This document shows positions 10,462-34,716 of a DNA stretch of 38,207 nucleotides, piece by piece. Both the position numbers and the translations under genes were made by a program. The DNA comes from Pseudogemmobacter humi (GTDB lineage Bacteria > Pseudomonadota > Alphaproteobacteria > Rhodobacterales > Rhodobacteraceae): assembly GCF_900609055.1 (NCBI RefSeq), contig NZ_UXAW01000113.1:1-38207 (forward strand), written 5' to 3'. Position 1 is the first letter of the stretch; each line of letters starts with the position of its first letter. Below the pieces are notes generated by a model that saw only the letters and a list, made by a program, of their open reading frames with translations, was not told where the DNA came from and did no database searches.

Positions 10462-10633
10462 CGGCGACACTCCTGTTCGGCGGTCGGGCGGTGGACGGAT
10501 CCGCCCCGATGTGGGGCGGCGGCGGGGGCGGGCAAAGCCGGGCGGCACCCGTGGGCGCGAACGCGCTGACGGATGGCGATCCCGGGCCACGCCCAAGGGA
10601 CCGGAAGCCTGTGCCTCCGGGGAATTGATCCGG

Positions 10634-16661: not shown

Positions 16662-19600
16662 TTACTGCCCGGCCACTTCGGACAGAAGTTTCGCATTGCC
16701 GCCCGAGGCGGTGGTGTCGATGCAGACATGGCGCTCGATCAGCGCATGGCCGCGGTCGGGGCGTGCGGTGATCAGGGGCAGGATCGGCCCCTGACGTTCC
16801 GCCAGCGCCAGCGCATAGCCGCGCGCGGCTTCGGCCTCGCCCCAGTAAAGCGCCGCGCCGAAACCTTCGAGCCGCGCGAGCGCCGGGGGCGCGAGGTCGG
16901 GCGCGGCCACCGCGAGGCCACCGAGCGCCGCCACTTCCGCCGCCTGGGCCTTTGCCACTTCGGAGCCGGGGCCGAGGCAAAGCACCGGCGGGCGCGGGAA
17001 ATGGCCGAGCCGGTTCGATTCGCCCGTGGGCCCGGGCAGATCGGCGGGTTCGGGCGCCGCGGTGGCGGTGGCGGCTTTCAGCGCGGCGGAGACCGCGGCT
17101 TCCTCAGAGGCCGGGCCGGGCATGCCCTGGACGGGAGCGGCGGCGACGGTGAAGCGCGGCAGGTAATCCGGGCCGCCCGCCTTGGGGCCGGTGCCCGAAA
17201 GCCCCTCGCCGCCGAAGGGCTGGCTGCCCACCACCGCGCCGATCTGGTTGCGGTTGACGTAGATGTTTCCGGCGTGGATGCGCTCGACGAAATGCTGCAC
17301 CCGGTCGTCGATACGGGTGTGCAGGCCGAAGGTGAGGCCGTAGCCGGTGGCGTTGATCTCCTGGATCACCTTGTCGATCTCGCCGGCCCTGAAGGTGGCG
17401 ACATGCAGCACCGGGCCGAAGATCTCGCGCTCCATCGCGGCGATTCCGGGCACTTTGATCACCGCGGGGGCGGCGAAAGTGCCCTGGCCGGGCACCCGGC
17501 AGTCGCGGATCAGCCTGCCGTCGGCGCGCGCCGCCTCGGTATGGTCGCGGATCACCGCGAGCGCCCCCGCGTCGATCACCGGGCCGACATCGGTCGACAG
17601 CAGCACCGGGTCGCCGATCGAGAGTTCCTCCATCGCACCCCCGAGCATTTCCAGGATCACCGGCGCGATATCCTCCTGGACGTAGAGGCAGCGCAAAGCC
17701 GAGCAGCGCTGGCCCGCCGACTGGAACGAGGACGCGATGATATCGCGCACCGCCTGTTCCGGCAGCGCGGTGGAATCGACCACCATCGCGTTCATCCCGC
17801 CGGTCTCGGCGATCAGCGGCGCGCCGGGGGCAAGGTTTTCGGCCATCGCACGGCGGATCTTCAGCGCGGTCTCGGTCGAGCCGGTGAAGGCCACGCCGTC
17901 CACGCGCGGGTCCGAGGTGAGCCAGGCCCCCACGTCGCCCTCGCCGGGCAAGAGTTGCAGGGCGGTCGCGGGCACCCCGGCCTGATGCATGAGGCCCACC
18001 GCGAGAGCGGCGATCAGCGGGGTCTGCTCAGCCGGTTTCGCCAGCACGGCATTTCCGGCCGCGAGGGCCGCCGCGATCTGGCCGGTGAAGATCGCCAGCG
18101 GAAAGTTCCAGGGGCTGATACAGGCGAAGCGGCCGCGGGCGGGATGGGTCAGGCCGGTGGCGCCCGCCGCGTAATAGCGCAGGAAATCCACCGCCTCGCG
18201 CAGTTCCGCCACCGCATCGGGCAGGTTCTTCCCGGCCTCGCGCGCCAGAAGCGCGAAGATCGGGCCGAAATTCGCCTCGTAAAGATCGGCGGCGCGGTTC
18301 AGCGCCTCGGCCCGGGTGGCGGCGTCCGTGGCCCAGGGCTCGGCCAGTCTGAGCGCAGTGTCCACATCGGCGCGGGCAGCGGCCAGCACCTGGCCCACCC
18401 GCGCGCCCGTCGCCGGGTTGACCACATCGCTGCGAAGCGCGCCCGCCGGACGGCCCGCCAGCATCGGCCCGGCCTCGGCGAAGCTGTCGAGATGCGGCAC
18501 CATCGCCGCCCCGATCCTGCGCAGATCGGCGCGGCTGGTCAGATCCCAGCCCTGCGAGTTCCTGCGCCCCGGGAAGATCTGCGGCCCCGGCGGCACCGCG
18601 GGATTCTCCTTCGGCGAGACGCCTTCCATGAAGGTCAGCGGGCAGGCGGCGACCTCTTCGGCGGGCACGCTTTCATCGACGATCTGGTTCACGAAGGACG
18701 AGTTCGCCCCGTTCTCCAGAAGCCGCCGCACGAGGTAGGCCAGCAGGTCGCGATGCGCGCCCACCGGGGCATAGATCCGGCATCTTGTGCCTTTATCCGA
18801 CAAAATCAGGTCGTGCAGCCGCTCTCCCATGCCGTGGAGACGCTGAAATTCGAACATTTCCGGGGTGACGCCGGCCTCTGCCGCCATGTCCAGCACCGCG
18901 GCCACGGTATGGGCATTGTGGCCGGCGAATTGCGGATAGATCCGGTCGGTCATGCCCAGCAGTTTGCGGGCATTGGCGATATAGGAAACGTCGGTCGCCT
19001 GTTTGCGGGTGAAGACCGGGAAGCTCTCCAGCCCCAGAACCTGGGCGCGTTTGATCTCGGCATCCCAATAGGCGCCCTTCACCAGCCGCACCATGATCTT
19101 GCGATCCAGCCGGGTCGCAAGGTCATAAAGCACGTCGATCACCGCCGCGCAGCGCCGCCCGTAGGCCTGGACCACCACGCCGAACCCGTCCCAGCCGGCC
19201 AAAGCGCGATCCTCCAGCACCGCGGCGATGACCTTCAGCGACAGATCCAGCCGGTCGGCCTCTTCCGCGTCGATGTTGAAGCCGATCCCGGCCGATTTCG
19301 CCAGCCCCGCCAGCGCGCGCACCCGCGGCACCAGTTCGTGCATGACGCGGGTCTCATGGGCGACCTCGTAGCGCGGATGCAGCGCCGAGAGCTTGACCGA
19401 GATCCCCGGATTGGCGCCGATGTCGCGGCCCTTCGCCGCCCCGGCGATCGCGGTGATCGCGCGGGTATAGGCGAGGTGATAGCGCCGCGCGTCGGCCTCG
19501 GTCCGCGCGGCTTCCCCCAGCATGTCGTAGCTGTAGGTGTAGCCTTTCGCCTCCAGTTCCTTCGCCCGGGTCATGGCCTTCTCGATGGTCTCGCCCAGCA

Positions 19601-20102
19601 CGAACTGGCGGCCCATCTCCTTCATCGCCCGGGTGGTGGCGGTGCGGATCACCGGCTCGCCCAGGCGGCGGATCGCGCCGCGCAGATGGCCCGCGATGCC
19701 GGGGCCGCGCTCGTCCAGCACCTTGCCGGTCAGCATCAGCGCCCAGGTCGAGGCGTTCACCAGCGACGAGGCCGAATGCCCGAGATGCCGCCCCCAGTCC
19801 GACGGCGCGATCTTGTCCTCGATCAGCGCGTCCATGGTGGGCGCGTCGGGCACCCGCAAAAGCGCCTCGGCCAGACACATCAGCGCGATGCCCTCATCGG
19901 TCGACAGCCCGTATTCGGCGAGGAAGACCTCCATCAGCCCCGGCTTCGCGCCTGAGCGGATCCGGCGTACGAGCTCTGCGCCCGCGCCCGCGATCCGCGC
20001 CCGGGCGGCGCCGTCCAGCCGGCAGTCGTCGATCAGTTTCGCGACCAGCGCGGCCTCGTCGGCGAGGCTGTCGTCGGCGACCACATCCCAAGGATTCTTC
20101 AT
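16662..20102 (-). CDS. putA: Bifunctional proline dehydrogenase / P5C dehydrogenase
   Basis: A 1146-residue enzyme that oxidises proline to glutamate in two steps, passing delta-1-pyrroline-5-carboxylate between its active sites. It acts at the inner-membrane face with FAD and NAD+. The proline dehydrogenase barrel (about 190-480) contains SVKLSALHPRYE, MVRLVKGAYWDAEIKRA (337-353) and RRLLENGANSSFVNQ (459-473). The aldehyde dehydrogenase half (about 540-1000) contains ISPWNFPLAIFTGQ (662-675), FTGSTETA (739-746), the general base in AETGG (Glu 766) and catalytic Cys800 in GQRCSALR. It has no N-terminal ribbon-helix-helix, so it cannot repress its own gene; the divergent putR does the regulation. 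A C-terminal extension of over 100 residues, common in long PutA forms, follows. The start ATG has AGGAG upstream. Confidence 0.96.
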   Translation of the reverse strand: MKNPWDVVADDSLADEAALVAKLIDDCRLDGAARARIAGAGAELVRRIRSGAKPGLMEVFLAEYGLSTDEGIALMCLAEALLRVPDAPTMDALIEDKIAPSDWGRHLGHSASSLVNASTWALMLTGKVLDERGPGIAGHLRGAIRRLGEPVIRTATTRAMKEMGRQFVLGETIEKAMTRAKELEAKGYTYSYDMLGEAARTEADARRYHLAYTRAITAIAGAAKGRDIGANPGISVKLSALHPRYEVAHETRVMHELVPRVRALAGLAKSAGIGFNIDAEEADRLDLSLKVIAAVLEDRALAGWDGFGVVVQAYGRRCAAVIDVLYDLATRLDRKIMVRLVKGAYWDAEIKRAQVLGLESFPVFTRKQATDVSYIANARKLLGMTDRIYPQFAGHNAHTVAAVLDMAAEAGVTPEMFEFQRLHGMGERLHDLILSDKGTRCRIYAPVGAHRDLLAYLVRRLLENGANSSFVNQIVDESVPAEEVAACPLTFMEGVSPKENPAVPPGPQIFPGRRNSQGWDLTSRADLRRIGAAMVPHLDSFAEAGPMLAGRPAGALRSDVVNPATGARVGQVLAAARADVDTALRLAEPWATDAATRAEALNRAADLYEANFGPIFALLAREAGKNLPDAVAELREAVDFLRYYAAGATGLTHPARGRFACISPWNFPLAIFTGQIAAALAAGNAVLAKPAEQTPLIAALAVGLMHQAGVPATALQLLPGEGDVGAWLTSDPRVDGVAFTGSTETALKIRRAMAENLAPGAPLIAETGGMNAMVVDSTALPEQAVRDIIASSFQSAGQRCSALRCLYVQEDIAPVILEMLGGAMEELSIGDPVLLSTDVGPVIDAGALAVIRDHTEAARADGRLIRDCRVPGQGTFAAPAVIKVPGIAAMEREIFGPVLHVATFRAGEIDKVIQEINATGYGLTFGLHTRIDDRVQHFVERIHAGNIYVNRNQIGAVVGSQPFGGEGLSGTGPKAGGPDYLPRFTVAAAPVQGMPGPASEEAAVSAALKAATATAAPEPADLPGPTGESNRLGHFPRPPVLCLGPGSEVAKAQAAEVAALGGLAVAAPDLAPPALARLEGFGAALYWGEAEAARGYALALAERQGPILPLITARPDRGHALIERHVCIDTTASGGNAKLLSEVAGQ

Positions 20103-20113
20103 GCGCGGCTCCT

Positions 20114-20135
20114 GTGTATTTTGCCCATAATACAC
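20114..20135. promoter_or_regulatory. Candidate PutR operator
   Basis: An inverted repeat with seven-base arms GTGTATT and AATACAC around eight bases, lying 12 bases before the putA start codon in the 105-base putA-putR gap. A second AT-rich pair, ATTAT (20160) and ATAAT (20181), is nearer putR. Lrp-type regulators bind such AT-rich dyads. The first dyad includes a TATTAT that could be the putA -10 box. Confidence 0.5.
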
Positions 20136-20207
20136 CGGAACATGAAGGCGGTTTTCCTGATTATCGAAATATGCTAAGCCATAATGACCACAAATAAGGA
20201 GTTTCCC

Positions 20208-20669
20208 ATGCCAGCCGTCCAGGCCGATCTCGACCGTTTCGACCATGCGATCCTGCGGGTTCTGGCGACCGAGGGCCGGATCAGCGCGGTGGAACTCGCC
20301 CGCCGGGTGGGGCTGTCGAAAAGCCCGGTCCAGGCCCGGATGAAACGGCTGGAGGAGGACGGGGTGATCGCGGGCTACCGCGCCATCCTCGATCCGGTGA
20401 AGATGGGGCTGGCGCATGTCGCCTTTGTCGAGGTGCGGCTCGACGACACCCGCGAGGCGGCGCTCCAGGCCTTCAACCGCGCGGTGCTGACCGTGCCCGA
20501 GGTCGAGCAGTGCCATATGATCGCCAGCCGGTTCGACTATCTGCTGAAGGTGCGCACGGTGGACATCGCCGATTACCGCCGGGTGCTGGCCGAACGGATC
20601 AGCGCGCTGCCGCATGTGGCGCAGACCTCGACCTATGTCGCGATGGAGGCGGTGAAGGAGGCGGTCTGA
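20208..20669 (+). CDS. putR: Lrp/AsnC-family regulator of proline use
   Basis: A 153-residue Lrp-type regulator. The helix-turn-helix (about residues 8-58: DRFDHAILRVLATEGRISAVELARRVGLSKSPVQARMKRLEEDGVI) is followed by the ligand-binding RAM domain (about 65-145). It is divergent from putA by 105 bases. In Rhodobacter capsulatus the divergent PutR activates putA in response to proline, and this arrangement is the same. The ATG at 20208 is preferred because AAGGAG lies six bases upstream of it; the ATG at 20184 lacks such a site. Confidence 0.93.
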   Translation: MPAVQADLDRFDHAILRVLATEGRISAVELARRVGLSKSPVQARMKRLEEDGVIAGYRAILDPVKMGLAHVAFVEVRLDDTREAALQAFNRAVLTVPEVEQCHMIASRFDYLLKVRTVDIADYRRVLAERISALPHVAQTSTYVAMEAVKEAV

Positions 20670-20763
20670 TAAGGCCAGGGCGGGAAATCCCGGCAGTCCA
20701 GCCGCCGCCAGGCTTGCCCGGGACCGCATCCGCCCTAGCATGGCGGAAAACCCGGAGACCCCG

Positions 20764-22209: not shown

Positions 22210-23853
22210 ATGAACCTCCTTCGCGCTCTCGTTCTTGCCCTGGGCCTTACCGCCGTACTCCCCGCCTTCGCCGAAGGCCGCTCGATCATCGTGCTCGACG
22301 CCTCGGGGTCGATGTGGGGCCAGATCGACGGCCGCGCCAAGCTGGAGATCGCGCGCGAGGCGCTCGGCACCGTGCTCTCGACCCTGCCCGCCGAAACCGA
22401 GATCGGCCTGATGGCCTATGGCCACCGCGAGAAAGGCGATTGCGGCGATATCGAACTGGTGGTGCCGCCCGGCAAGGGCACCGCCGCGGCGATCGTGGCG
22501 GCGGCGCAGCAGATGAAATTCCTCGGCAAGACGCCGCTGACCGCGGCGGTGCGCCAGGCGGCGGCGGATCTGCACTCGACCGAAGAGAAAGCCACCGTCA
22601 TCCTGATCACCGACGGGATCGAGACCTGCGAGGCCGATCCCTGCGCGCTCGGGCGCGAGCTTGAGACCTCGGGCGTGGATTTCACCGCCCATGTGGTGGG
22701 CTTCGGCCTGACCGCGGACGAGGGCCGCGCCGTCGCCTGTCTGGCCGAGAACACCGGCGGAAGGTATATCCAGGCCAGCGATGCGGGCCAGCTGGAAGCG
22801 GCGCTGAAAACCACCGTCGCGGCAGAGCCCGAGCCCGCCCCGCCCCCGGAGCCCGCGCCCGCGAAGCTCGACCGCAACATCGACCCGGTCCTCTTGCTGA
22901 CCGAAGGCGGCAAAGAGCCGGAGATCGCCGCCGATGCGATTTTCGATTTCTACCCGCTCACCGACGAGGGGCCCGCCGCGGACCGCACCCATACGCTTTA
23001 CGGCAACAGCGTCGAATATCTGGCGCCCGGGCGCTATCTGATGAAGACCCGCCTGCACAAGGCCACCACCGAACAGGAGATCGAGGTCACCGACAGCGAA
23101 CTGGCGCAGCCGGTGGCGGTGCTGGATGCGGGGCTCCTGCGGCTGCGGGTGCTGGCGAACGAAGGCGGCGAGCCCGACGGTGACGCCTGGTTCGAGATCC
23201 GCGGCCCCGGCGACATCGTGGAAAGCGGCTACGGCAAGGCGACGGTCGTGCTGCCCGCGCAGGAATATGCGCTGAGCCTGCGGCTCGGCGCCGCCGAGGT
23301 CAGCCAGAGCTTCGTGATCGTGGCGGGCGGGGAACTGGTGAAAGACGTGGTGATGGGCGTCGGCGTGGCCGCCTTCAGCGTGGTCTACGCCGCAGATGCC
23401 GCGGTCTCCGACGGCGATCTGCACACCGAGATCTTCGAGGCGAAGACCGACCTGGAGGGCAACCGCAAATCGCTGACCTATGCCTGGGGGCCGGATGCGA
23501 AATTCGACCTGGCGCCGGGAGAGTATCTCGCCGTGGTTTCGCTCGATGCGGTGCAGGCCCGGATTCCGCTGACGATCCGGGTGAACGAGCGCAGCGAGAT
23601 CCGCGTCGACCTCCAGGCCGGAGTCGCCGCTTTCACCACGCCCGGCGACGAGCTGATCGAGGTGCTCTCGGCCGCGAAGGACATCGAAGGCAACCGCAAG
23701 CAGCTGGCTTACGGCTACGGGCCGGAATGGCAGACCGTCCTGCCGGCGGGCGATCTGGTGGTGCGGGTGGAGAAAGACGGCACCGCCTCGGAAACCCCGG
23801 TCACGGTGAAACCCGGGGAGCGACTGGAACTGTCGCTGAAAGCGGCACCCTGA
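22210..23853 (+). CDS. Secreted VWA-domain protein with C-terminal repeats
   Basis: A 547-residue exported protein. A signal peptide ends at PAFA (residue 21). The von Willebrand A domain spans about 23-205, with an intact metal-ion-dependent adhesion motif DASGSM (30-35), a Thr in LGKTPLTAAV and ITDGIETCEAD. A Pro/Glu-rich linker follows (EPEPAPPPEPAPAK). The rest consists of beta-rich modules of about 90-100 residues; two clearly repeat the block DLEGNRKSLTYAWGP / DIEGNRKQLAYGYGP. It probably binds other proteins in the periplasm or at the surface in a metal-dependent way. The ATG has GGAG upstream. It is not obviously part of the T6SS cluster to the right. Confidence 0.85.
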   Translation: MNLLRALVLALGLTAVLPAFAEGRSIIVLDASGSMWGQIDGRAKLEIAREALGTVLSTLPAETEIGLMAYGHREKGDCGDIELVVPPGKGTAAAIVAAAQQMKFLGKTPLTAAVRQAAADLHSTEEKATVILITDGIETCEADPCALGRELETSGVDFTAHVVGFGLTADEGRAVACLAENTGGRYIQASDAGQLEAALKTTVAAEPEPAPPPEPAPAKLDRNIDPVLLLTEGGKEPEIAADAIFDFYPLTDEGPAADRTHTLYGNSVEYLAPGRYLMKTRLHKATTEQEIEVTDSELAQPVAVLDAGLLRLRVLANEGGEPDGDAWFEIRGPGDIVESGYGKATVVLPAQEYALSLRLGAAEVSQSFVIVAGGELVKDVVMGVGVAAFSVVYAADAAVSDGDLHTEIFEAKTDLEGNRKSLTYAWGPDAKFDLAPGEYLAVVSLDAVQARIPLTIRVNERSEIRVDLQAGVAAFTTPGDELIEVLSAAKDIEGNRKQLAYGYGPEWQTVLPAGDLVVRVEKDGTASETPVTVKPGERLELSLKAAP

Positions 23854-23883
23854 GCGCCACGGGCTGCCCCCTGCCCGCCCGGT

Positions 23884-23915
23884 CTGCGCCCCGCAAGGAA
23901 TGCGGCCGGGCGCAG
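23884..23915 (+). terminator. Hairpin after VWA gene
   Basis: An outer stem CTGCGCCC/GGGCGCAG and an inner stem CCGCA/TGCGG form an extended hairpin with an AGGAA loop, 30 bases after the VWA stop. No T-run follows. Confidence 0.4.
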
Positions 23916-24548: not shown

Positions 24549-24884
24549 TGGTGCGGACGACGGGACTTGAACCCGTAATTCCTTGCGGAAGGCAGATTTT
24601 CATCCCACTTCGGCTTTCGCCGCCGCCCCCGTTCCGGGGCCGTTCGTGGGCTGGACTGTCCCTTTGCCATGGCCATGCGGTTTCCCGGCAAGGCTACAGG
24701 CACCGCCCGTCCAGTCTCTACACCTTCCCGCGGGACTGACTGCCCGCGGGCTTGGCTCGGGATTGGCGTGGGGCCCGGAGGCCCGTTAGCTTTCCCCGAA
24801 TTTGAGCGGTTCTGCACCGGAGGTTTCCCCCCGGGCACTCCAATCGTCAAAGTCTGCTGCGTATACCAGTTTCGCCACGTCCGC
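24549..24884 (-). tRNA. tRNA-Leu(UAA), split by a group I intron
   Basis: On the minus strand the 5' exon (24884-24850, 35 bases) gives acceptor GCGGACG, a D-arm with GCGAAACTGG, and the 5' half of the anticodon arm ending GCAGACTT. The 3' exon (24600-24549) resumes AAAATCTGC, then has a class-II variable arm (stem TTCC/GGAA, loop GCAA), a T-arm with GGTTCAAGT, acceptor CGTCCGC, discriminator A and an encoded CCA. Joined, the anticodon stem is GCAGA/TCTGC around the loop CTTAAAA, so the anticodon is UAA and the mature tRNA is 87 bases. All four stems pair perfectly or nearly so. A standard bacterial tRNA search is likely to miss this gene because of the 249-base insert. Confidence 0.93.
24601..24849 (-). 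other. Group I intron (IC3-like) in the tRNA-Leu anticodon loop
   Basis: A 249-base insert between U34 and A35 of the anticodon. On the minus strand it shows the ordered core blocks of the cyanobacterial tRNA-Leu intron: AAATTCGGGGAAAGCTAA (P/P4 region, 24804-24787), CCAATCCCGAGCCAAGC (Q/J4-5 region, about 24766-24750), GGTGTAGAGACTGGACGG (R/P7 region, 24724-24707) and GGACAGTCC (S region, 24661-24653). The insert follows a U, and ACTT in the exon can pair with GAGT in the intron with a U-G pair at the splice site; it ends in G. No homing endonuclease gene is present. Self-splicing is expected from the family. Confidence 0.92.
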
Positions 24885-27568: not shown

Positions 27569-29719
27569 GTGAGCGGGCACCCCCCGATCTTCCGCACGGG
27601 CGATGTGCTCAACAACACCTACCGGATCGAGGCGATCCTGGGCCGCGGCGGCACGTCCGAGGTCTATCGCGCCCGGTCCGAGATTTCCGGCAAGGTCGTG
27701 GCGCTGAAGGCGCTGCGCTCGGAATTTGCCCGCAACGACGATTATCTTGCGCTGATGACGCGCGAGGAAGACATCCGCGACATCCGCCACGATGTGATCG
27801 TGCGCTATTTCGACACCCAGCGGACCGACGACGGCACCGTCTATCTGGTGATGGATTACATCGACGGCCCGGCGCTCGACAAGAAGATGCGCGACGGCGG
27901 CATGTCGGCCGGGGATCTGATGGTGGTGGCCGGGCGGGTCCTTGAGGGGCTGCACGCCGCCCACAGCCGCAACATCGTGCACCGCGACCTGTCGCCCGAC
28001 AACATCATCCTGCGCGGCGGTGATCCGAAACATGCGGTGATCATCGACTTCGGTATCGCCAAGGACACCAACCCCGGCGCCCAGACCATCGTCGGCGGCG
28101 AATTCGCCGGGAAATACGCCTATGCCGCGCCCGAACAGCTGGCCGGCAAGGCCGATGCGCGCACCGATCTCTACTCGCTGGGCGCGCTTTTGCTGGCGGT
28201 GTTCCGCGGCAAGGCGCCCGACAGCGGCGCCAATCTGATGGAAGTGGTCGAGCGCAAGGCGAAACCGCCCGACACCTCGGGCGTGCCCGAGCCGCTGCAA
28301 AGCCTGATCGCCCGGCTCACCGACCCGGACCGCGAGAGGCGCTTCCCCTCGGCCGAGGCGGCGCTGGCGGCGATCCGCTCCGGCGCGCTTGCGCTGCCAT
28401 CCGCCGACAGCGAGGCGACGGTGATCGTGCCGCGCAAGGCGGCGCCCGCGCCCGCATCATCGCCCCCGCCTGCGCCGAAGCCCGCGCCCCCTGCCCCGCC
28501 GAAGACGGCCGCGAAGAAAGGCGGCAAGGGCGGGCTGATCGCGGCCCTGCTGGCGGTTCTGGCCCTGGGCCTTGGCGGCGCGGAATATGCCACCGGGGCG
28601 CTCGGCCTCTTCGGCCCTTCGCTGCCGCTGGAAAAACCCTTCACCCTCAGCGTCACCCGCGACGAGGGCGCGGCGCCGGTCGCCACCGGCTTCGTCCCCG
28701 ACCAGGAGGTCGCGACCCGGCTTTCCGCCGCCATCGCCGAACAGGGCGGGGCGGCGACCGAACTGCCGCTGGCGAGGGGCGACATCGCCGAGACCTGGGG
28801 CGCGGGCGTGGTGGATCTGGTCGACCGGCTGGCCGGCCTGCCGGAATACCGGCTGCTGGTCGCGGACAACCAGGTCCAGGTCGAGGGGATCACCAGCATC
28901 CGCTCGGATTACGAACAGGCGAAGGCCGATCTCGCGACACTGCCGCCGGGGCTGAGCGGCACCGCGGTGATCGAACTCGGGCCGCGGATCCTCGGCCTGC
29001 GCGCGGTGCAGTCGGTGCTGGCCACGCATGAGGATTGCGGCCCGCTTTCGGTGATCAACGCCCCCGCCCAGGGCTGGGGCCTTGCCGCCACCATCCAGAT
29101 CAGCGGCCGCATCGCCTCGGCGGAAAGCCAGGCGAAGCTGCGCGCGGCGCTTGAGGCGGTGATCGGCAACCGGGTGGCGCAGCTCGATCTGGAGGTGCTG
29201 AACCCGACGCTCTGTCTGCTGGACGCCGCTTTGCCCACGGCTTTTGGCGGCGGGCTGAGTTTCACCTTCGGCTACGGCGACCGCGACGAGCCCAATCCCC
29301 AGGCCCGCTATCTGGTGGGCGAAAACCCGGTGATCGACCTGACCATCCCCGCCGATATGCCGGACGGCTATCTCTATGTCTCGGCGCTGGACGTTTCGGG
29401 CAATATCTTCCACCTGATCCCCAATGTTGCGCGCACCGACAACCGGCTGAGCGATCTGCGCGCGGGACAGGCCGGGCCGGTGACGGTGCGGCTGGCCTAT
29501 GGCATCGAAGAGGCCAAAGGCACCGGCCGGATCGCCTTTGCGGTGGACGACAGCGCGCTCGGCAAGACGCGGCTGGTTGCCATCGTCTCGGACGCGCCGC
29601 TGTTCGGCGGCCTGCGCCCGATCACCGAAAGCGCCGGAAGCTATGCCAAGGCCCTTGGGGAACTGACCACGCCGATCCGCAGCCTCGATTCCGCGGTGCT
29701 GACCACGGCGAGGCCCTGA
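27569..29719 (+). CDS. ppkA: T6SS Ser/Thr protein kinase PpkA with periplasmic DUF4384-type domain
   Basis: A 716-residue membrane kinase. The N-terminal kinase domain (about 18-270) is complete: GRGGTSEVYRA (25-35), Lys47, HRDLSPDN (138-145) and DFG (160-162). A Pro/Ala-rich linker (290-315), one membrane span (about 322-340) and a periplasmic region follow. The end of that region has GYLYVSALDVSGNIFHLIPN, the signature of the DUF4384 domain found in T6SS kinases. It is expected to phosphorylate the FHA protein TagH and promote T6SS assembly. Its GTG start lies 15 bases after the OmpA gene. It ends seven bases from the convergent pppA. Confidence 0.92.
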   Translation: MSGHPPIFRTGDVLNNTYRIEAILGRGGTSEVYRARSEISGKVVALKALRSEFARNDDYLALMTREEDIRDIRHDVIVRYFDTQRTDDGTVYLVMDYIDGPALDKKMRDGGMSAGDLMVVAGRVLEGLHAAHSRNIVHRDLSPDNIILRGGDPKHAVIIDFGIAKDTNPGAQTIVGGEFAGKYAYAAPEQLAGKADARTDLYSLGALLLAVFRGKAPDSGANLMEVVERKAKPPDTSGVPEPLQSLIARLTDPDRERRFPSAEAALAAIRSGALALPSADSEATVIVPRKAAPAPASSPPPAPKPAPPAPPKTAAKKGGKGGLIAALLAVLALGLGGAEYATGALGLFGPSLPLEKPFTLSVTRDEGAAPVATGFVPDQEVATRLSAAIAEQGGAATELPLARGDIAETWGAGVVDLVDRLAGLPEYRLLVADNQVQVEGITSIRSDYEQAKADLATLPPGLSGTAVIELGPRILGLRAVQSVLATHEDCGPLSVINAPAQGWGLAATIQISGRIASAESQAKLRAALEAVIGNRVAQLDLEVLNPTLCLLDAALPTAFGGGLSFTFGYGDRDEPNPQARYLVGENPVIDLTIPADMPDGYLYVSALDVSGNIFHLIPNVARTDNRLSDLRAGQAGPVTVRLAYGIEEAKGTGRIAFAVDDSALGKTRLVAIVSDAPLFGGLRPITESAGSYAKALGELTTPIRSLDSAVLTTARP

Positions 29720-29726
29720 GCCGGGC

Positions 29727-30440
29727 TTAAAGGCAATCGACGACGATGGCCGAGATATTGTCGCCGCCGCCGCCGCGCAGCGCGATCTGGATCAGCGCGT
29801 CACAGACGGTCTCCATCGGCTTGCCGGTCACCGCGCGGCGCAGCACCTCGAAACCGGCGTATTTCGTCAGCCCGTCCGAACACAGCAGGAATCGGTCGCC
29901 GCGCCGGATCTCGCCGCGCAGCTTGTCCAGATCCAGCGCATCGCCCACCCCCACCGCCCGGGTGATGGCGTTGGATTGCGGATGCTGCTCGGCCTCGTCC
30001 CAGGTCAGGGCGCCGGCGGCGACCAGTTCGCCCGCGACGGAATGGTCCGCGGTCAGCAGTTCGATCCCGCCGTCGCGGAAACGGTAGAGCCGGCTGTCTC
30101 CGGCCCAGAACACCACGAAATGGCCGTTGGCGACCAGAAGCGCCACCACCGTCGCCCCGATCACCGCCCCGCCGCGGCGCAGGGCCTCGGCCCGGATCGT
30201 GTCATGGCTTTGCAGGATGGCCTGGCGCAAAGCCTGCATCGCATCCGCCGGGGCCAGATCGGGCGGCAAGGCGGCGATGGTCTCGGTCACGGTCTGGCTG
30301 GCGAAATCCCCGGCCTCATGCCCGCCCATCCCGTCCGAGACCACCCAGATCCGCTGCTCGGGCAGCGACAGGATGCTGTCCTCGTTGATCTTGCGGCGAA
30401 GGCCGGTATGGGTGGCGGCACTGTAGCGCAATGTCGTCAT
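29727..30440 (-). CDS. pppA: T6SS PP2C-type Ser/Thr phosphatase
   Basis: A 237-residue metal-dependent phosphatase. The metal ligands are in NEDSI (Asp21), VSDGMGGHEAGD (Asp36, Gly37), LLCSDGLT and GGGGDNISAIVV (Asp227). It should reverse PpkA-dependent phosphorylation of TagH and reset the T6SS. The start ATG overlaps the tagF stop codon (ATGA), so it is the last gene of the minus-strand T6SS operon. Confidence 0.93.
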   Translation of the reverse strand: MTTLRYSAATHTGLRRKINEDSILSLPEQRIWVVSDGMGGHEAGDFASQTVTETIAALPPDLAPADAMQALRQAILQSHDTIRAEALRRGGAVIGATVVALLVANGHFVVFWAGDSRLYRFRDGGIELLTADHSVAGELVAAGALTWDEAEQHPQSNAITRAVGVGDALDLDKLRGEIRRGDRFLLCSDGLTKYAGFEVLRRAVTGKPMETVCDALIQIALRGGGGDNISAIVVDCL

Positions 30441-31114
30441 GGCTGGCCCCTCCCGCAGGCGTCAGGGTCGATCAGGTGGCGAAAGCGGTCCGGCGGCGGC
30501 AGGCCGTCGGTCAGGACCAGCGCCTCGCCTTCCGCCAGCAAGGCGGTGAACAGAGCCGCGCGGGGAAAGGCGGAGCGAGCCAGCGCAGCGGCGAGCGCCG
30601 CCCCCGGATCGGGCCCCGGATCGGGCGCGCAGAGCCCGAGGAACCCCGGCGCCGCCTGAACCGCCGCCGCAGGCAGGGAAGCGCCGCCGATCCCGGCCAG
30701 ATCCTGTTGCAGCCGCGCCTGCGTTCCGCCGTCATCCAGCGCCGACAGCGCCACGGTTTCCAGCGCGGCGAACCGCTCGCCCGCCGCCAGGTGGCTCGCC
30801 ACCGGATCGCAGCCCGCGGGCAAGGCGCGCGCCAGCGTCAGCGGAAACTGCCGTCCCACCCGGTCGACCGAGGCCATCAGCACGCCCTCGGCCCCCGCGC
30901 GCCCCGCCACCCCCGGCGCCAGGGTAAAGCGCCAGATCGGCGCCGACATATAGGCGCCCTGCCAGCGCTCCCCCAGCCCCATACGCGCCGCCGGGATGCC
31001 CGCCTGCAACCAGCGGTCCCAGGCGGCGATGAAATCCGGTGCCAGTCCGAAACGGAAGAAATCCCCCAAAGCGGGGATCTTGCCGTAGGCGCCGAAGGCG
31101 GTTTCCCCCGCCAT
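30437..31114 (-). CDS. tagF: T6SS regulatory protein TagF
   Basis: A 225-residue cytoplasmic protein of the TagF/ImpM family, a post-translational brake on T6SS firing. The N-terminus AFGAYGKIPALGDFFRFGL (about 5-23) is the family hallmark, followed by FIAAWDRWLQAGI, GAYMSAPIWRFTLAPG and VDRVGRQFPLTLA. The ATG at 31114 begins two bases after the tssM stop codon and gives the usual N-terminus; an ATG at 31135 (MPGLVLT...) overlapping tssM is possible. In other systems TagF is sometimes fused to PppA; here they are separate but coupled. Confidence 0.92.
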   Translation of the reverse strand: MAGETAFGAYGKIPALGDFFRFGLAPDFIAAWDRWLQAGIPAARMGLGERWQGAYMSAPIWRFTLAPGVAGRAGAEGVLMASVDRVGRQFPLTLARALPAGCDPVASHLAAGERFAALETVALSALDDGGTQARLQQDLAGIGGASLPAAAVQAAPGFLGLCAPDPGPDPGAALAAALARSAFPRAALFTALLAEGEALVLTDGLPPPDRFRHLIDPDACGRGQP

Positions 31115-31116
31115 GG

Positions 31117-34100
31117 TCAGAACGAGGCCGGGCATTTGAACTCGGTCAGCGCGGCCAGCGCGAAGGGGTTCTTCACCGATCCCGACTGCATCCCGAAGAT
31201 CGCGATCCGCCCGCCCACCTTGAAGATCACCCGGGTGCGGTCGGCCACATTGGTGCGGCGGATCTCGGCCGCGTCCAGCAGGCGAAACAGCGCCCAGGGC
31301 CCGTCGCGGCTGATCGTGCTTTCGCCCCCCGCCAGCGGCGGCTCCATGGTGATCCGCCCCAGCCCCACCGCGCCGGGCCAGCCGATGGCCGAGGGCGTGG
31401 GCTGGCCTTCCCCTTGCGCGAAGGCCACGCGCTGGCCGTCCAGTTCCAGCACGATGGAATTGGCCTTGGGGTCCAAAGCCTCGGGCGTCATCTGGAACTG
31501 CACCTTCGGCACCGGACCGGCGGCGAAAAAGGCGTCGCGGATCTCGGCCGCGTGCTGCATCTGCAACAGAACCTGGGGCGAGATGCCCAGATCGGCGTCG
31601 TTCACCTTCTTGAAGGTCCAGGGCCGCGCGCGCTGATCGACATGTTCGGCCAGGTTGGCCTGGAAGAATTTGTCGATCAGCCCGCCCGGCGCGAAGAGCG
31701 TGGTGAAATCCTGGATCGAGATATCCGCCGCCGCGCGGCGCGAGAACGGATATTTGTTCTCGGTCGCCTGCTGGCACAGGGGCATCACCTCGGCCTGCCA
31801 TTTGGCGTTGATTCCGGCGCGGGTGCCGTCGGCGGTGATCCCCGAGGATCCAGAGACGACCTGGCTGACCCATCGCTGGATCGGCCCCGGCAGTTGCGAG
31901 GCGGCCTGGACAAGGCCCTGGATCGCCGGGCCCGCGGTCTCGGAACTGCCGACGCCTCCGGAAAACGCCAGCTTGTTCAGCTCCTGGTTCACCTCGGTAA
32001 GGCTCGCGATCAGCGTGTCCAGCGGCGAGGGCGCCCCTTCGGGGGCGGTGACCAGATCCTGGATCGCGGCGAACCTTTCTTCGACATAGGCGCCCGGGGG
32101 CACCGGCTCGCCGCCGGGGACGGCGGGCACCGAGAGCGCATCGAGGATGCGGCGGCTTTGCGACGGCAGCCGCCCGAGCGCCCCGGTGGAGAGGATCGAG
32201 GACGGGATCGCCGCGCTCACCCCCTCGGCCGCGGCCAGGGCATCGCCCACCGAAGCCGGGGCCGCCGCCACGGTCGAGGGATCGACCGTCAGCCGCGTCT
32301 CGTCGGCGATGGCGCCCAGCACATTGCGCAAGGGCGAGGCCGGGCCGGACAGCACATTCGTCACCTCGACCGCATGCGGCAGGGATTCCAGCGGGATGAT
32401 GTCGAGATCGGACAGCATCTGATCGTAGCGCCCGACGTAATCGTTGTAATACAGCGCCAGCACGTCGCGCGACAAAGCGGTCTGCGCGGCGTCGGACAGA
32501 TCCTGACTCGCGGTCGGCCCCAGCACGAAGGCATCGCGCTGGATCTGGGCGGAAACCCGCAGTGCCTCGGGCAGGAAGACCTCGTAGAAGCCCTTGCGGG
32601 TGTAGATCCCCTCGATCCCCTCGTTGAGCGGCCGCCCCGAGGAACGGGTGAAGGCGCGCGCGATGGCCGGGCCGCCGATGTCGGTCGGCCGCCAGGCCGG
32701 CAGGGCACGGGCGGCGTCGGTCTGGACAATGCCGTTATAGATGCGCTGCGCCTGCGGCATCCGGGTCAGGATATCCTGGACCTGCGATACCAGGTCTGCG
32801 TTCAGGTCGATCTTCTTCATCGGCCCGGCCAGCAGCGCGTCGAGATGCAGCGCCAGCACCTGGCGCAGATCCTCACGGCTGGCGCCGCCATAGAGGCGAT
32901 CCCAGTCGGCGGTGAAATATTCCTTCACCAGAGCCTCGTCCATCGGGCCGATCTGGCCCAGCATCAGATAGACCTTCAGCAAGTCGAACAACACCACGGG
33001 ATCGTTGATGCTGGACTGCATCTGATCCTCCAGCCGCACCAGCAGGCGGGGCAGGAAATGGCGGTTCAGCGCGTCGCGCCAGGCGAGTTTCGCCTCGTTC
33101 CCCAGCACGGCGGACTGATCGAGCCCCCAGGCCAGCACTCCGGCCTGCGCGACCGGCGCCCCGGCGCCCGGCACCACCCGCAGATGTTCCAGCGCCGGCA
33201 CCACCAGCGGCAGATCGCTGTCGGCGACCGGCCCCACCGGGATCGCGGCGGCCTCCAGCCGGTAGGCCCCGATCCGGTCGGCGACTTCCTGGCGCTGGCG
33301 GCCGGTCTCCTGCCAGAACTGGAACCAGGCAAGGCCGATGCCGCCCGCGATCAGCACCGTCGCCGCCACCGCGCCGTGGCGCATCCAGCGGTAACGCCGT
33401 TCCACCCGGTCGTCGGAGCTGACGAGACCGGCCTCGGGGAAGATCACCCCGTCGAACAGCCGGGTCAGGAAGAAGCTGCGCCCGGTGCCCCGCCCGGTGC
33501 CGATGGCCTGGCGGCCGATGCCGAAGCTGCGCGCCATGCCCATCATCAGCCGGTCGATGGGCGTGCCTTCCTGGGTGCCGGAGGCGAAATAGACCCCGCG
33601 CAGCATCTGGCGGTGCTCATAGCGGTTTTCCTGAAAGACCTCGGTCAGGAAGTCGCGGGCGATCTGGCGCATGCTGGCAAGCTGGCCCGGAAAGCCCGCG
33701 ATCAGGCTGCGGCGCGGCGGATCGCTTTCCGCCTGCATCCGCTCCAGCACCTGGGCGTTCAGCCGCGCGATCAGCAGGCCGAATTCCTCGTCGAACCCGG
33801 CGATGGCGGGGGCTGCCTGGCGGCCCTGCGGCAGGGGAAGGGTGAAGCCCCAGACCTGCTCGCGCCCCTCTTTCGGCAGACGGTCGAAGGTCTCGGTGAA
33901 GCCGGCGATCAGATCGGCCTTGGTGAACAGCACATAGACCGGGAAACGCACGCCCAGCTTCTCGCGCAATTCGTGCAGCCGGCGGCGAATCGCGGCGCCA
34001 TGGGCCTTTTGCGTCGCGGGATCCTGCATCAGCAGATCCGACAGCGAGATCGCCACAACGGCGCCGTTGATCGGCTGGCGCTTGCGGTATTTCTTCAGGA

Positions 34101-34716
34101 GGCCCAGGAAGCCGAGCCAGCCCGCATTATCGGCCGAGGCGTCGCTTTCCTGAGTGGTGTAGCGCCCGGCGGTATCGACCAGCACCGCATTGTCGGTGAA
34201 CCACCAGTCGCAGTTGCGCGTCCCCCCCACCCCGCCGATCGAGCCCGCGCCCATCTCTTCGGCCAGCGGAAAGCTGAGGCCGGAATTGACGATGGCGGTG
34301 GTCTTTCCGGCGCCGGGCGGGCCGATGATCACATACCACGGCAGTTGCGCCAGATGCCGCCGCCCGCCTTTGGCGCGGCGCAGCTTGCCAAGCGCTCCGC
34401 GCAGTTTCTCGCGCAGCTCCGTCATTTCGTCGCCGACGCCGATATCCCCCGCCGGGCCGGTGTCGGGGGTGGCGATGATCTCTTCGGCCAGCCTGTCGTC
34501 GCGCTTTTGCGCCCGGATCAGAAGGATCAGCACGACCAGAAGCGCGAGGATCCACAACACGCCCAGCCCGATCAGCCGCCCGGTCACGCCGTCAAACGGG
34601 CGCGCCTCGCCGAAGGCGAAGAACGGCCCGAGCAGCCAGAGCACTACTGATAACACCAGCGTGACGATCAGGGTGATCCCCACCCCCGAGCCGATGGCAC
34701 GCAGGATCTTGCGCAT
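31117..34716 (-). CDS. tssM: T6SS inner-membrane complex protein TssM (IcmF)
   Basis: A 1199-residue protein that spans the envelope and connects TssL to the outer-membrane lipoprotein TssJ. Two N-terminal spans (13-33 and 47-67) are followed by a cytoplasmic GTPase-like domain with an intact Walker A motif GPPGAGKT (132-139), and by DTAGRY. A third span lies near residue 425-450. The large C-terminal part is periplasmic and ends with the TssJ-binding beta domain (AIGWPGAVGLGRITMEPP and WALFRLLDAAEI). Start and stop are unambiguous; only three bases separate it from tssL. Confidence 0.95.
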   Translation of the reverse strand: MRKILRAIGSGVGITLIVTLVLSVVLWLLGPFFAFGEARPFDGVTGRLIGLGVLWILALLVVLILLIRAQKRDDRLAEEIIATPDTGPAGDIGVGDEMTELREKLRGALGKLRRAKGGRRHLAQLPWYVIIGPPGAGKTTAIVNSGLSFPLAEEMGAGSIGGVGGTRNCDWWFTDNAVLVDTAGRYTTQESDASADNAGWLGFLGLLKKYRKRQPINGAVVAISLSDLLMQDPATQKAHGAAIRRRLHELREKLGVRFPVYVLFTKADLIAGFTETFDRLPKEGREQVWGFTLPLPQGRQAAPAIAGFDEEFGLLIARLNAQVLERMQAESDPPRRSLIAGFPGQLASMRQIARDFLTEVFQENRYEHRQMLRGVYFASGTQEGTPIDRLMMGMARSFGIGRQAIGTGRGTGRSFFLTRLFDGVIFPEAGLVSSDDRVERRYRWMRHGAVAATVLIAGGIGLAWFQFWQETGRQRQEVADRIGAYRLEAAAIPVGPVADSDLPLVVPALEHLRVVPGAGAPVAQAGVLAWGLDQSAVLGNEAKLAWRDALNRHFLPRLLVRLEDQMQSSINDPVVLFDLLKVYLMLGQIGPMDEALVKEYFTADWDRLYGGASREDLRQVLALHLDALLAGPMKKIDLNADLVSQVQDILTRMPQAQRIYNGIVQTDAARALPAWRPTDIGGPAIARAFTRSSGRPLNEGIEGIYTRKGFYEVFLPEALRVSAQIQRDAFVLGPTASQDLSDAAQTALSRDVLALYYNDYVGRYDQMLSDLDIIPLESLPHAVEVTNVLSGPASPLRNVLGAIADETRLTVDPSTVAAAPASVGDALAAAEGVSAAIPSSILSTGALGRLPSQSRRILDALSVPAVPGGEPVPPGAYVEERFAAIQDLVTAPEGAPSPLDTLIASLTEVNQELNKLAFSGGVGSSETAGPAIQGLVQAASQLPGPIQRWVSQVVSGSSGITADGTRAGINAKWQAEVMPLCQQATENKYPFSRRAAADISIQDFTTLFAPGGLIDKFFQANLAEHVDQRARPWTFKKVNDADLGISPQVLLQMQHAAEIRDAFFAAGPVPKVQFQMTPEALDPKANSIVLELDGQRVAFAQGEGQPTPSAIGWPGAVGLGRITMEPPLAGGESTISRDGPWALFRLLDAAEIRRTNVADRTRVIFKVGGRIAIFGMQSGSVKNPFALAALTEFKCPASF

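Follow-up and report, generated by a model that had tools for sequence, protein, structure and literature searches.

How does an alphaproteobacterium come to read UUA with a tRNA-Leu(UAA) gene that is interrupted inside its anticodon, and by what route did such a gene reach its genome? The question is raised by positions 24549–24884 of a Pseudogemmobacter humi contig (NZ_UXAW01000113.1), analysed here as a whole stretch of 38,207 nt, called the window; the tRNA gene and all its parts given below lie on its minus strand. The locus is a tRNA-Leu(UAA) gene with a group I intron of 249 nt between U34 and A35. The 5' exon (24850–24884) holds the acceptor, the D arm, the anticodon stem, U33 and U34, the intron (24601–24849) ends in a conserved G, and the 3' exon (24549–24600) holds the variable arm, the T arm and the encoded CCA. 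These boundaries are exactly those of an earlier sequence-only reading, and its description of the joined exons as a class II tRNA-Leu with CCA was borne out by ARAGORN, which called the 87-nt product tRNA-Leu(taa) and folded it as a class II cloverleaf whose variable arm is paired and whose CCA is encoded. Its placement of the insert also holds, as the U34|A35 junction ranked first among 1040 T|...G splice combinations around the core, albeit narrowly (118.0 vs. 117.0).

The gene escapes standard annotation. ARAGORN with default settings missed the split tRNA-Leu(UAA) gene in the window, and its sole call, a doubtful tRNA-Leu(cag) at 23808–23885, is probably false, being without Rfam support, overlapping ORFs and having another CAG gene elsewhere in the genome. 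The intron mode of ARAGORN placed the junction one base off and named the gene tRNA-Phe. A whole-window Rfam scan at gathering scores found neither tRNA nor intron at 24549–24884, and a permissive local scan of the intron with RF00028, the check that the sequence-only reading had proposed, reached 27.9 bits (E 2.8e-5) against a gathering score of 50. Taken by itself this shortfall speaks against a group I intron, but it is not decisive and was dropped as a disproof, since 15 of 20 tRNA-Leu(UAA) intron loci (hand-picked, the window locus included) fail the same cut-off. With only five of the 20 passing it, the shortfall looks like a limit of sensitivity. The case shows that default ARAGORN and the Rfam cut-off can overlook a sole tRNA-Leu(UAA) gene. 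Elsewhere in the window, Rfam matched RF01793 (ffh sRNA) at 10538–10590 on the minus strand, and genes for a protein kinase, a PP2C phosphatase, a TagF-like protein and an IcmF-type type VI secretion protein adjoin the tRNA at 27569–34716.

The structure of the intron was mapped by hand (P1–P10) from the window sequence onto an alignment (A1) of 63 whole genes, the tRNA helices being counted in. A1 retains 63 of 69 dereplicated genes after the manual removal of six long ones from Paraburkholderia; genes with introns above 300 nt and one duplicate had been excluded earlier. P1 is formed by the last four exon bases and the first intron base (24849–24853), which pair with the internal guide (24837–24841). 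P3 pairs 24804–24810 with 24702–24708, the 5' strand of P4 (24794–24799) pairs with 24757–24762, and P6/P6a is a hairpin at 24727–24750. The 5' strand of P7 (24712–24716), which contains the guanosine site, pairs with 24654–24658 across P3 and so forms a pseudoknot, and P9.2 (24611–24622) is a hairpin with a GAAA loop. In A1, 92.3% of 4811 cells were paired, compared with 79.9% in shuffled alignments and 34–44% with partners slid, and double-sided changes numbered 584 vs. 187 in the shuffles (tRNA helices included in both measures). Changes on both sides were seen in 55 of 81 pairs, and none of 500 shuffles reached any of the five measures. The crossing helices P3 and P7 had double-sided changes in 5 of 7 and 3 of 5 pairs, respectively; one compensatory example is the column pair 210–284 (AU 45, GC 18). 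Furthermore, the U·G pair at the 5' splice site was present in all 63 sequences, and the last intron base G was invariant in the alignment, the same 3' intron end having been part of the search pattern. The weak spots are P10 (70.6% paired), the poorly aligned P9.1 (52.9%) and the outermost P3 pair, which fails in 54 of the 63 sequences. The pseudoknotted P3–P7 core is present together with P4–P6 and P8, as is characteristic of group I. Thus, on comparative grounds, the intron is confirmed as a group I intron with P1–P9 supported by compensatory changes, as the sequence-only reading had proposed; by type it is an IC3-like tRNA intron. According to this model, the pre-tRNA would be transcribed, guanosine would attack the U34 splice site at the U·G pair of P1, the exons would be joined, and the mature, presumably self-spliced tRNA would read UUA.

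Whether the cell depends on this splicing is a separate matter. In the genome of the window (G000, a draft of 143 contigs), RF00005 gave 39 tRNA matches, and ARAGORN on these loci assigned the leucine anticodons CAA, CAG, GAG and UAG, with no UAA. This list is judged incomplete, because Tyr, Ser(UGA), Ala(UGC) and Ile(GAU) are also absent from it. DNA searches of the same draft with the spliced gene and with the intact type of the congeners found no intact tRNA-Leu(UAA) either, so the supposed absence of another such gene was upheld across the 143 contigs. The supposition that this is the only tRNA reading UUA and UUG fails for UUG, for which tRNA-Leu(CAA) is present. The further claim that cell growth depends on splicing found no support. 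TTA was counted after codon position 100 alone, because the apparent TTA codons of dnaA-like and tRNA-synthetase-like ORFs fell in doubtful N-terminal extensions, for which reason UUA in essential genes was also dropped as a proof of dependence. Five TTA were left in 79,970 internal codons (295 ORFs, 438 kb, about a tenth of the genome), compared with 24 in 109,470 codons before the N-terminal parts were excluded; some UUA codons look real, such as codon 189 of PutA. With UUA nearly absent in this sample and UUG served by a separate tRNA, it is plausible but unproven that growth depends on splicing.

The sequence-only reading had suggested that such an intron is unusual in proteobacteria, which was not borne out. 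A survey pattern made of the intron 3' end and the 3' exon matched at least 119 stretches in the genome collection, and 103 of the 119 matches listed could be parsed as full tRNA-Leu(UAA) genes interrupted at the identical position, frequently in Alphaproteobacteria (127 pattern places considered, 8 + 119; locus L104 is the same gene as L034). The 16 unparsed matches lie at contig ends, have no matching 5' exon or, in one case (L106), arose by chance. By contig title, the carriers belong to Rhodobacterales, Caulobacterales, Hyphomicrobiales, Sphingomonadales, Paraburkholderia, Acidobacteria and others, and tRNA-Leu(UAA) introns were also found in contigs titled Beta- or Gammaproteobacteria. 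A core model (R1) detected introns of this type, in any host tRNA, in 29 of 190 class, 20 of 198 family and 7 of 13 genus genomes. The training set of R1 (38 of 61 cores, alignment A2) contains the window sequence itself, which makes the R1 score of the window circular. An exact-pattern survey of the class gave 10 of 385 genomes, which is a lower bound. The host tRNA, read from the three best junctions, could be assigned for 32 of 49 class and family loci (17 unassigned): 21 Leu(UAA), 5 Arg(CCU), 4 Lys and 2 Arg(UCU). Because related introns occupy Arg(CCU), Lys and Arg(UCU), they must have changed host tRNA at some time. As a separate observation, this intron type was located in alphaproteobacterial tRNA-Lys(UUU/CUU) and tRNA-Arg(UCU) at L039, L263, L270, L274, L291 and L295.

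Comparable tRNA introns are known. We take U34|A35 to be the exact insertion site of the cyanobacterial tRNA-Leu(UAA) intron, and Vepritskiy in 2002 reportedly described a tRNA-Leu(UAA) intron in gammaproteobacteria. The cited part of one study places the cyanobacterial-type intron within the UAA anticodon (PMC5733544), and an excerpt of another gives 37/38 as the position of most bacterial tRNA introns (PMC4033280). The likeness to the cyanobacterial introns, in the same tRNA and in the UAA anticodon, is one of description; unlike them, some of the proteobacterial genes stand in another, mobile context with an integrase and a broken native half. Among Gammaproteobacteria, Beggiatoa and Thiomargarita likewise have tRNA-Leu-TAA and tRNA-Arg-TCT genes interrupted by putative group I introns, and the cited section of that report, which describes neither a structure of these introns nor a mobile setting, contradicts the supposed rarity further (PMC4853749). 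The Bartonella intron BbgpI in tRNA-Arg(CCU) splices in vivo and in vitro and leaves its host gene un-annotated, according to the cited part of that work (PMC7717549). The alphaproteobacterial tRNA-Arg(CCU) introns share a related core and this effect on annotation; they differ in the tRNA and in the anticodon position, and the five compared here form a group of their own (support 0.70). Among the papers listed in a literature search, which reached little of the subscription literature, none dealt by title or abstract opening with alphaproteobacterial tRNA-Leu(UAA) introns or with intron tRNAs linked to integrases.

Within Pseudogemmobacter, the intron gene is present in 7 of 13 genomes and an intact tRNA-Leu(UAA) in five (G002, G003, G006, G009 and G011); the core model and DNA searches found neither form in G010. 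The exons of the window are 93–97% identical to those of the other carriers of the genus and 67–74% identical to the five intact congeners, no nearer than to a typical intron-bearing gene elsewhere (median 74%); two intact genes from other families reach 79% and 76%. With the limit set at E 0.001, the search with the intact type found matches in 117 of 149 family genomes, the weaker of these matches including other leucine tRNAs. The locus can be followed by its neighbors. A GNAT-like gene lies about 1.6–1.7 kb upstream of the intact gene in G006, G009 and G011, with two CoA-transferase genes in between; these two genes adjoin all four intact genes tested (G003, G006, G009 and G011) and are absent from the flanks of all seven intron carriers. 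In the carriers G001, G004, G005, G007 and G012, the GNAT-like gene lies 0.25–0.33 kb upstream of the intron gene. An antisense frame had at first been taken for the GNAT gene and was replaced after re-examination. On the other side, putA (proline dehydrogenase/aldehyde dehydrogenase; 16662–20741, minus strand, in the window) marks the locus in the genus: it lies downstream of the intact gene in G006 and G011, and the putA side is common to the carriers G000, G005 and G008, G005 showing both the GNAT-like and the putA side. The window gene thus combines exons of foreign type with the position of the native tRNA, as would be expected of a rescue tRNA. Because the carrier exons are unlike those of the intact congeners and yet occupy the same locus, the intron gene appears, from these comparisons, to have arrived whole and to have replaced the native intact tRNA-Leu(UAA).

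Such a replacement could also follow from ordinary horizontal spread, in which the tRNA locus moves together with its intron by transformation or transduction and homologous recombination, the intron being a neutral passenger and any neighboring integrase incidental. We regard this as a possible but distinctly less likely account. It fits the whole-gene replacement at one locus in the genus, it fits a window that shows no trace of an element, and, as tRNA genes are common integration sites, it leaves room for integrase neighbors. Moreover, whole genes are 93–95% identical across orders, as between a plasmid copy described below and those of Enterovirga, a Bradyrhizobiaceae MAG, Novosphingobium and Phyllobacterium. 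The surroundings of the intron gene in some relatives, however, are not those expected of an incidental association.

In some relatives, a second, broken tRNA-Leu(UAA) lies upstream of the intron gene. It comprises the acceptor and the D arm up to GACTTAAA and then turns into foreign sequence, that is, after the anticodon loop, where the motif used to find it also ends. None of these halves was called by ARAGORN. Among 81 named loci with 1.7 kb of upstream sequence, 16 have a broken 5' half on the same strand, the motif finding none at the other 65; among 74 with 1.7 kb of downstream sequence, one has a half (L060, on the opposite strand). At 13 loci the gap of about 1.05–1.5 kb between the half and the intron gene holds an ORF of one protein family, 390–450 aa long in 10 of the 13. 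These ORFs encode a tyrosine recombinase/integrase: Phage_integrase or SAM-like Pfam domains were matched in 9 of 10 scanned, 3 of them above the cut-off (the tenth, from L166, was a wrong opposite-strand ORF and had no match), the two gap ORFs scanned against PHROG matched the integrase PHROG 1 (E 9e-35 and 9e-29), and the blocks NTGLRPDE, RGKRG, SLRHTY and YYASH are conserved in 12 sequences. The family occurs within 1.7 kb upstream at 19 of 103 loci and downstream at none of the 103. Since L079, L146 and L166 have the element-side flank in common and the tRNA half of L166 is unlike the other two, the element boundary probably lies near GACTTAAA. Horizontal spread with incidental integrases would account poorly for the one-sided position of halves and integrase, and for halves that turn foreign at this point.

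The integrase family was also searched for in class genomes, with an alignment built from integrases beside intron genes and a strict threshold of E 1e-60. Strong matches occurred in 10 of 337 genomes, at 13 places. A Leu half stands upstream at three of these (L319 in G032, L320 in G123, and L327), and an intron core lies downstream at all three; the "half" of G032 was rejected as a split gene, as a matching T arm follows and it is a decayed whole gene. At 7 of the 13 places an intact tRNA-Met or tRNA-Arg lies upstream, and six of these have no intron core by motif within 700 nt. Because an intact tRNA remains upstream of the integrase at these places, integrases of this family can evidently do without an intron as such, which weighs against the element hypothesis set out below; this behavior beside other tRNAs also counts against an incidental association with the broken tRNA-Leu(UAA). 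At the seventh place (L329, with L049), the second integrase of G032 lies between two tRNA-Met(cat) genes and a second intron-like core starts about 0.7 kb downstream of it. A partial integrase (L331) adjoins an intron gene, and neither an upstream tRNA nor an intron core was seen beside the integrase at L328 and L330. No phage matched the family. Among plasmids, five records matched, and the four examined had neither half nor intron core (H59, a partial match, was left out). Crude motifs found no broken halves near the Lys and Arg introns, the two motif matches being the intron genes themselves.

The most complete arrangement was resolved in one genome, G123, which has an estimated contamination of 10%. 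On the minus strand of its contig 9, the native tRNA-Leu(UAA) is split by 20,347 bp, with the 5' half starting at 464692 and the core of the 3' half at 444307, and the core CGGACTTAAAATC is present at both ends. The joined halves give an 87-nt tRNA-Leu(taa), and neither half alone is called a tRNA. From the 5' half onwards, the order is the integrase, an intron-bearing tRNA-Leu(UAA) (intron of 281 nt) and further genes: a type I restriction-modification set with KwaB, ArdA, a T4SS coupling protein, a relaxase and AbiEii. Judged by this gene content, the 20-kb stretch (L336, L342) is an integrative mobilizable element that carries defence genes. When all of G123 was searched, no tRNA-Leu(UAA) match appeared apart from the halves of the split native gene and the exon pair of the intron gene. 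Integrative elements at tRNA genes usually restore the tRNA. The G123 element resembles them in its tyrosine recombinase beside a tRNA and in the direct repeat of tRNA sequence at both ends; unlike the usual case, it leaves its target disrupted in the anticodon loop and provides a full copy with an intron. A complete split gene with a shared core speaks against neutral passage, and sequence comparison supports the view that in relatives an element interrupts native tRNA-Leu(UAA) within the anticodon loop while delivering a copy that contains an intron.

We hypothesize that the vehicle of such genes is an integrative element whose tyrosine recombinase would integrate into the anticodon loop of tRNA-Leu(UAA) and thereby break the native gene. 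The element would carry an intron-bearing rescue copy of the same tRNA. Because the intron parts U34 from A35, this copy would have no integrase core site in its DNA, and the site would be rejoined in the RNA alone. The integrase would accordingly recognize the anticodon arm, and the intron would protect the copy. The element may later be lost, so that the intron-bearing gene stays as the only tRNA-Leu(UAA). For the whole of this reading, namely a spliceable tRNA, a whole foreign gene replacing the native one, and an integrative element with an intron-hidden rescue copy as the vehicle, we think the chances are better than even. Against it count the 65 of 81 loci at which the motif found no half, the single complete element, resolved in a genome with estimated contamination, and the viral carriers described below. 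In the examined flanks of the window and of the six intron-carrying congeners, no broken tRNA half was found; the integrase family had no match in the window or the congener flanks, nor in G000 at E 1e-60. For the carriers of the genus we therefore infer the vehicle from relatives, and on that basis an integrative-element origin of the window gene is most likely. In a congener (G004), an ORF that follows the intron tRNA on its downstream side within 1.7 kb (L222, after 10109) has a weak, below-cut-off Pfam match to Int_N and is perhaps another integrase that now uses the tRNA 3' end.

Two other histories are much less probable. Vertical inheritance of an ancient tRNA-Leu(UAA) intron, proteobacterial or cyanobacterial in origin, with repeated loss, would suit the insertion point, which the sequence-only reading gave as that of cyanobacteria and plastids, and the single clade formed by the introns of the genus (support 0.825). 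It would also give the correlation between exon and intron distances over 72 Leu loci (r 0.73, reached in 0 of 999 permutations). The sporadic occurrence at the level of genus, family and class speaks against it, as does the divergence between carrier and non-carrier exons within the genus, which intron loss alone would not produce, and we consider this history very unlikely. Similarly improbable is a history in which a mobile group I intron recently entered the native gene through homing or reverse splicing. The related introns in other tRNAs might suggest it, but the exons are as foreign as the intron, and a homing endonuclease was dropped as a candidate, 249 nt being too short for one and the crossing ORFs running through the tRNA and looking, by eye, like frame artefacts.

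The rescue-copy reading concerns a gene that is also found outside chromosomes. On pCTX-M3 (L197, 6001–6299) and other Enterobacterales plasmids, an intron tRNA-Leu(UAA) of the alphaproteobacterial type has an AAA-ATPase gene and aac(3)-IId as neighbors. This copy is 95% identical to that of Enterovirga, which suggests an alphaproteobacterial source for the stretch. Its right flank is as in L061 and L075 and its left flank has no tRNA, as expected of an unintegrated site. The gene matches 1,280 of 72,556 plasmid records (1,257 over 80% of its length) and 635 of 5,426 complete E. coli genomes (624 over 80%), and it has no annotated feature in the 10 E. coli matches listed or in the AR_0013 stretch. 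Furthermore, 19 IMG/VR viral contigs (L178–L196) match the tRNA-Leu(UAA) intron pattern. Several are identical, and the 5' exon is present in 17, L188 being cut at the contig end and L184 ambiguous. Two of three contigs checked have phage tail genes and the third (L185) has unknown or HNH-type phage families; no link to an integrase was seen in the viral contigs. As far as the cited part of a 2014 review goes, all phage introns then known were in protein genes (PMC3984707). The Gordonia phage Daredevil (L198, 1033–3260) offers a parallel with another tRNA: an integrase and a tRNA-Lys(UUU) with a 238-nt intron, unannotated in the record, stand close together, and the stretch read contains a single uninterrupted copy of the tRNA-Lys anticodon arm, GGACTTTTAATCCGC.

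We put forward tentatively, and at a little under even chances, the wider proposal that introns at U34|A35 persist by hiding a rescue tRNA from the integrase of their own element, the window gene being the settled remnant of such a takeover. At least two tRNAs, each with its own integrase, may come under the proposal: tRNA-Leu(UAA) in Alphaproteobacteria and Acidobacteria, and tRNA-Lys(UUU) in Daredevil. Genes of this kind are also carried by phages and by Enterobacterales plasmids that are very common. A split native gene together with an intron-bearing copy would offer a testable mechanism for endonuclease-free introns in the anticodon loop, for their patchy occurrence and for the joint movement of exons and intron.
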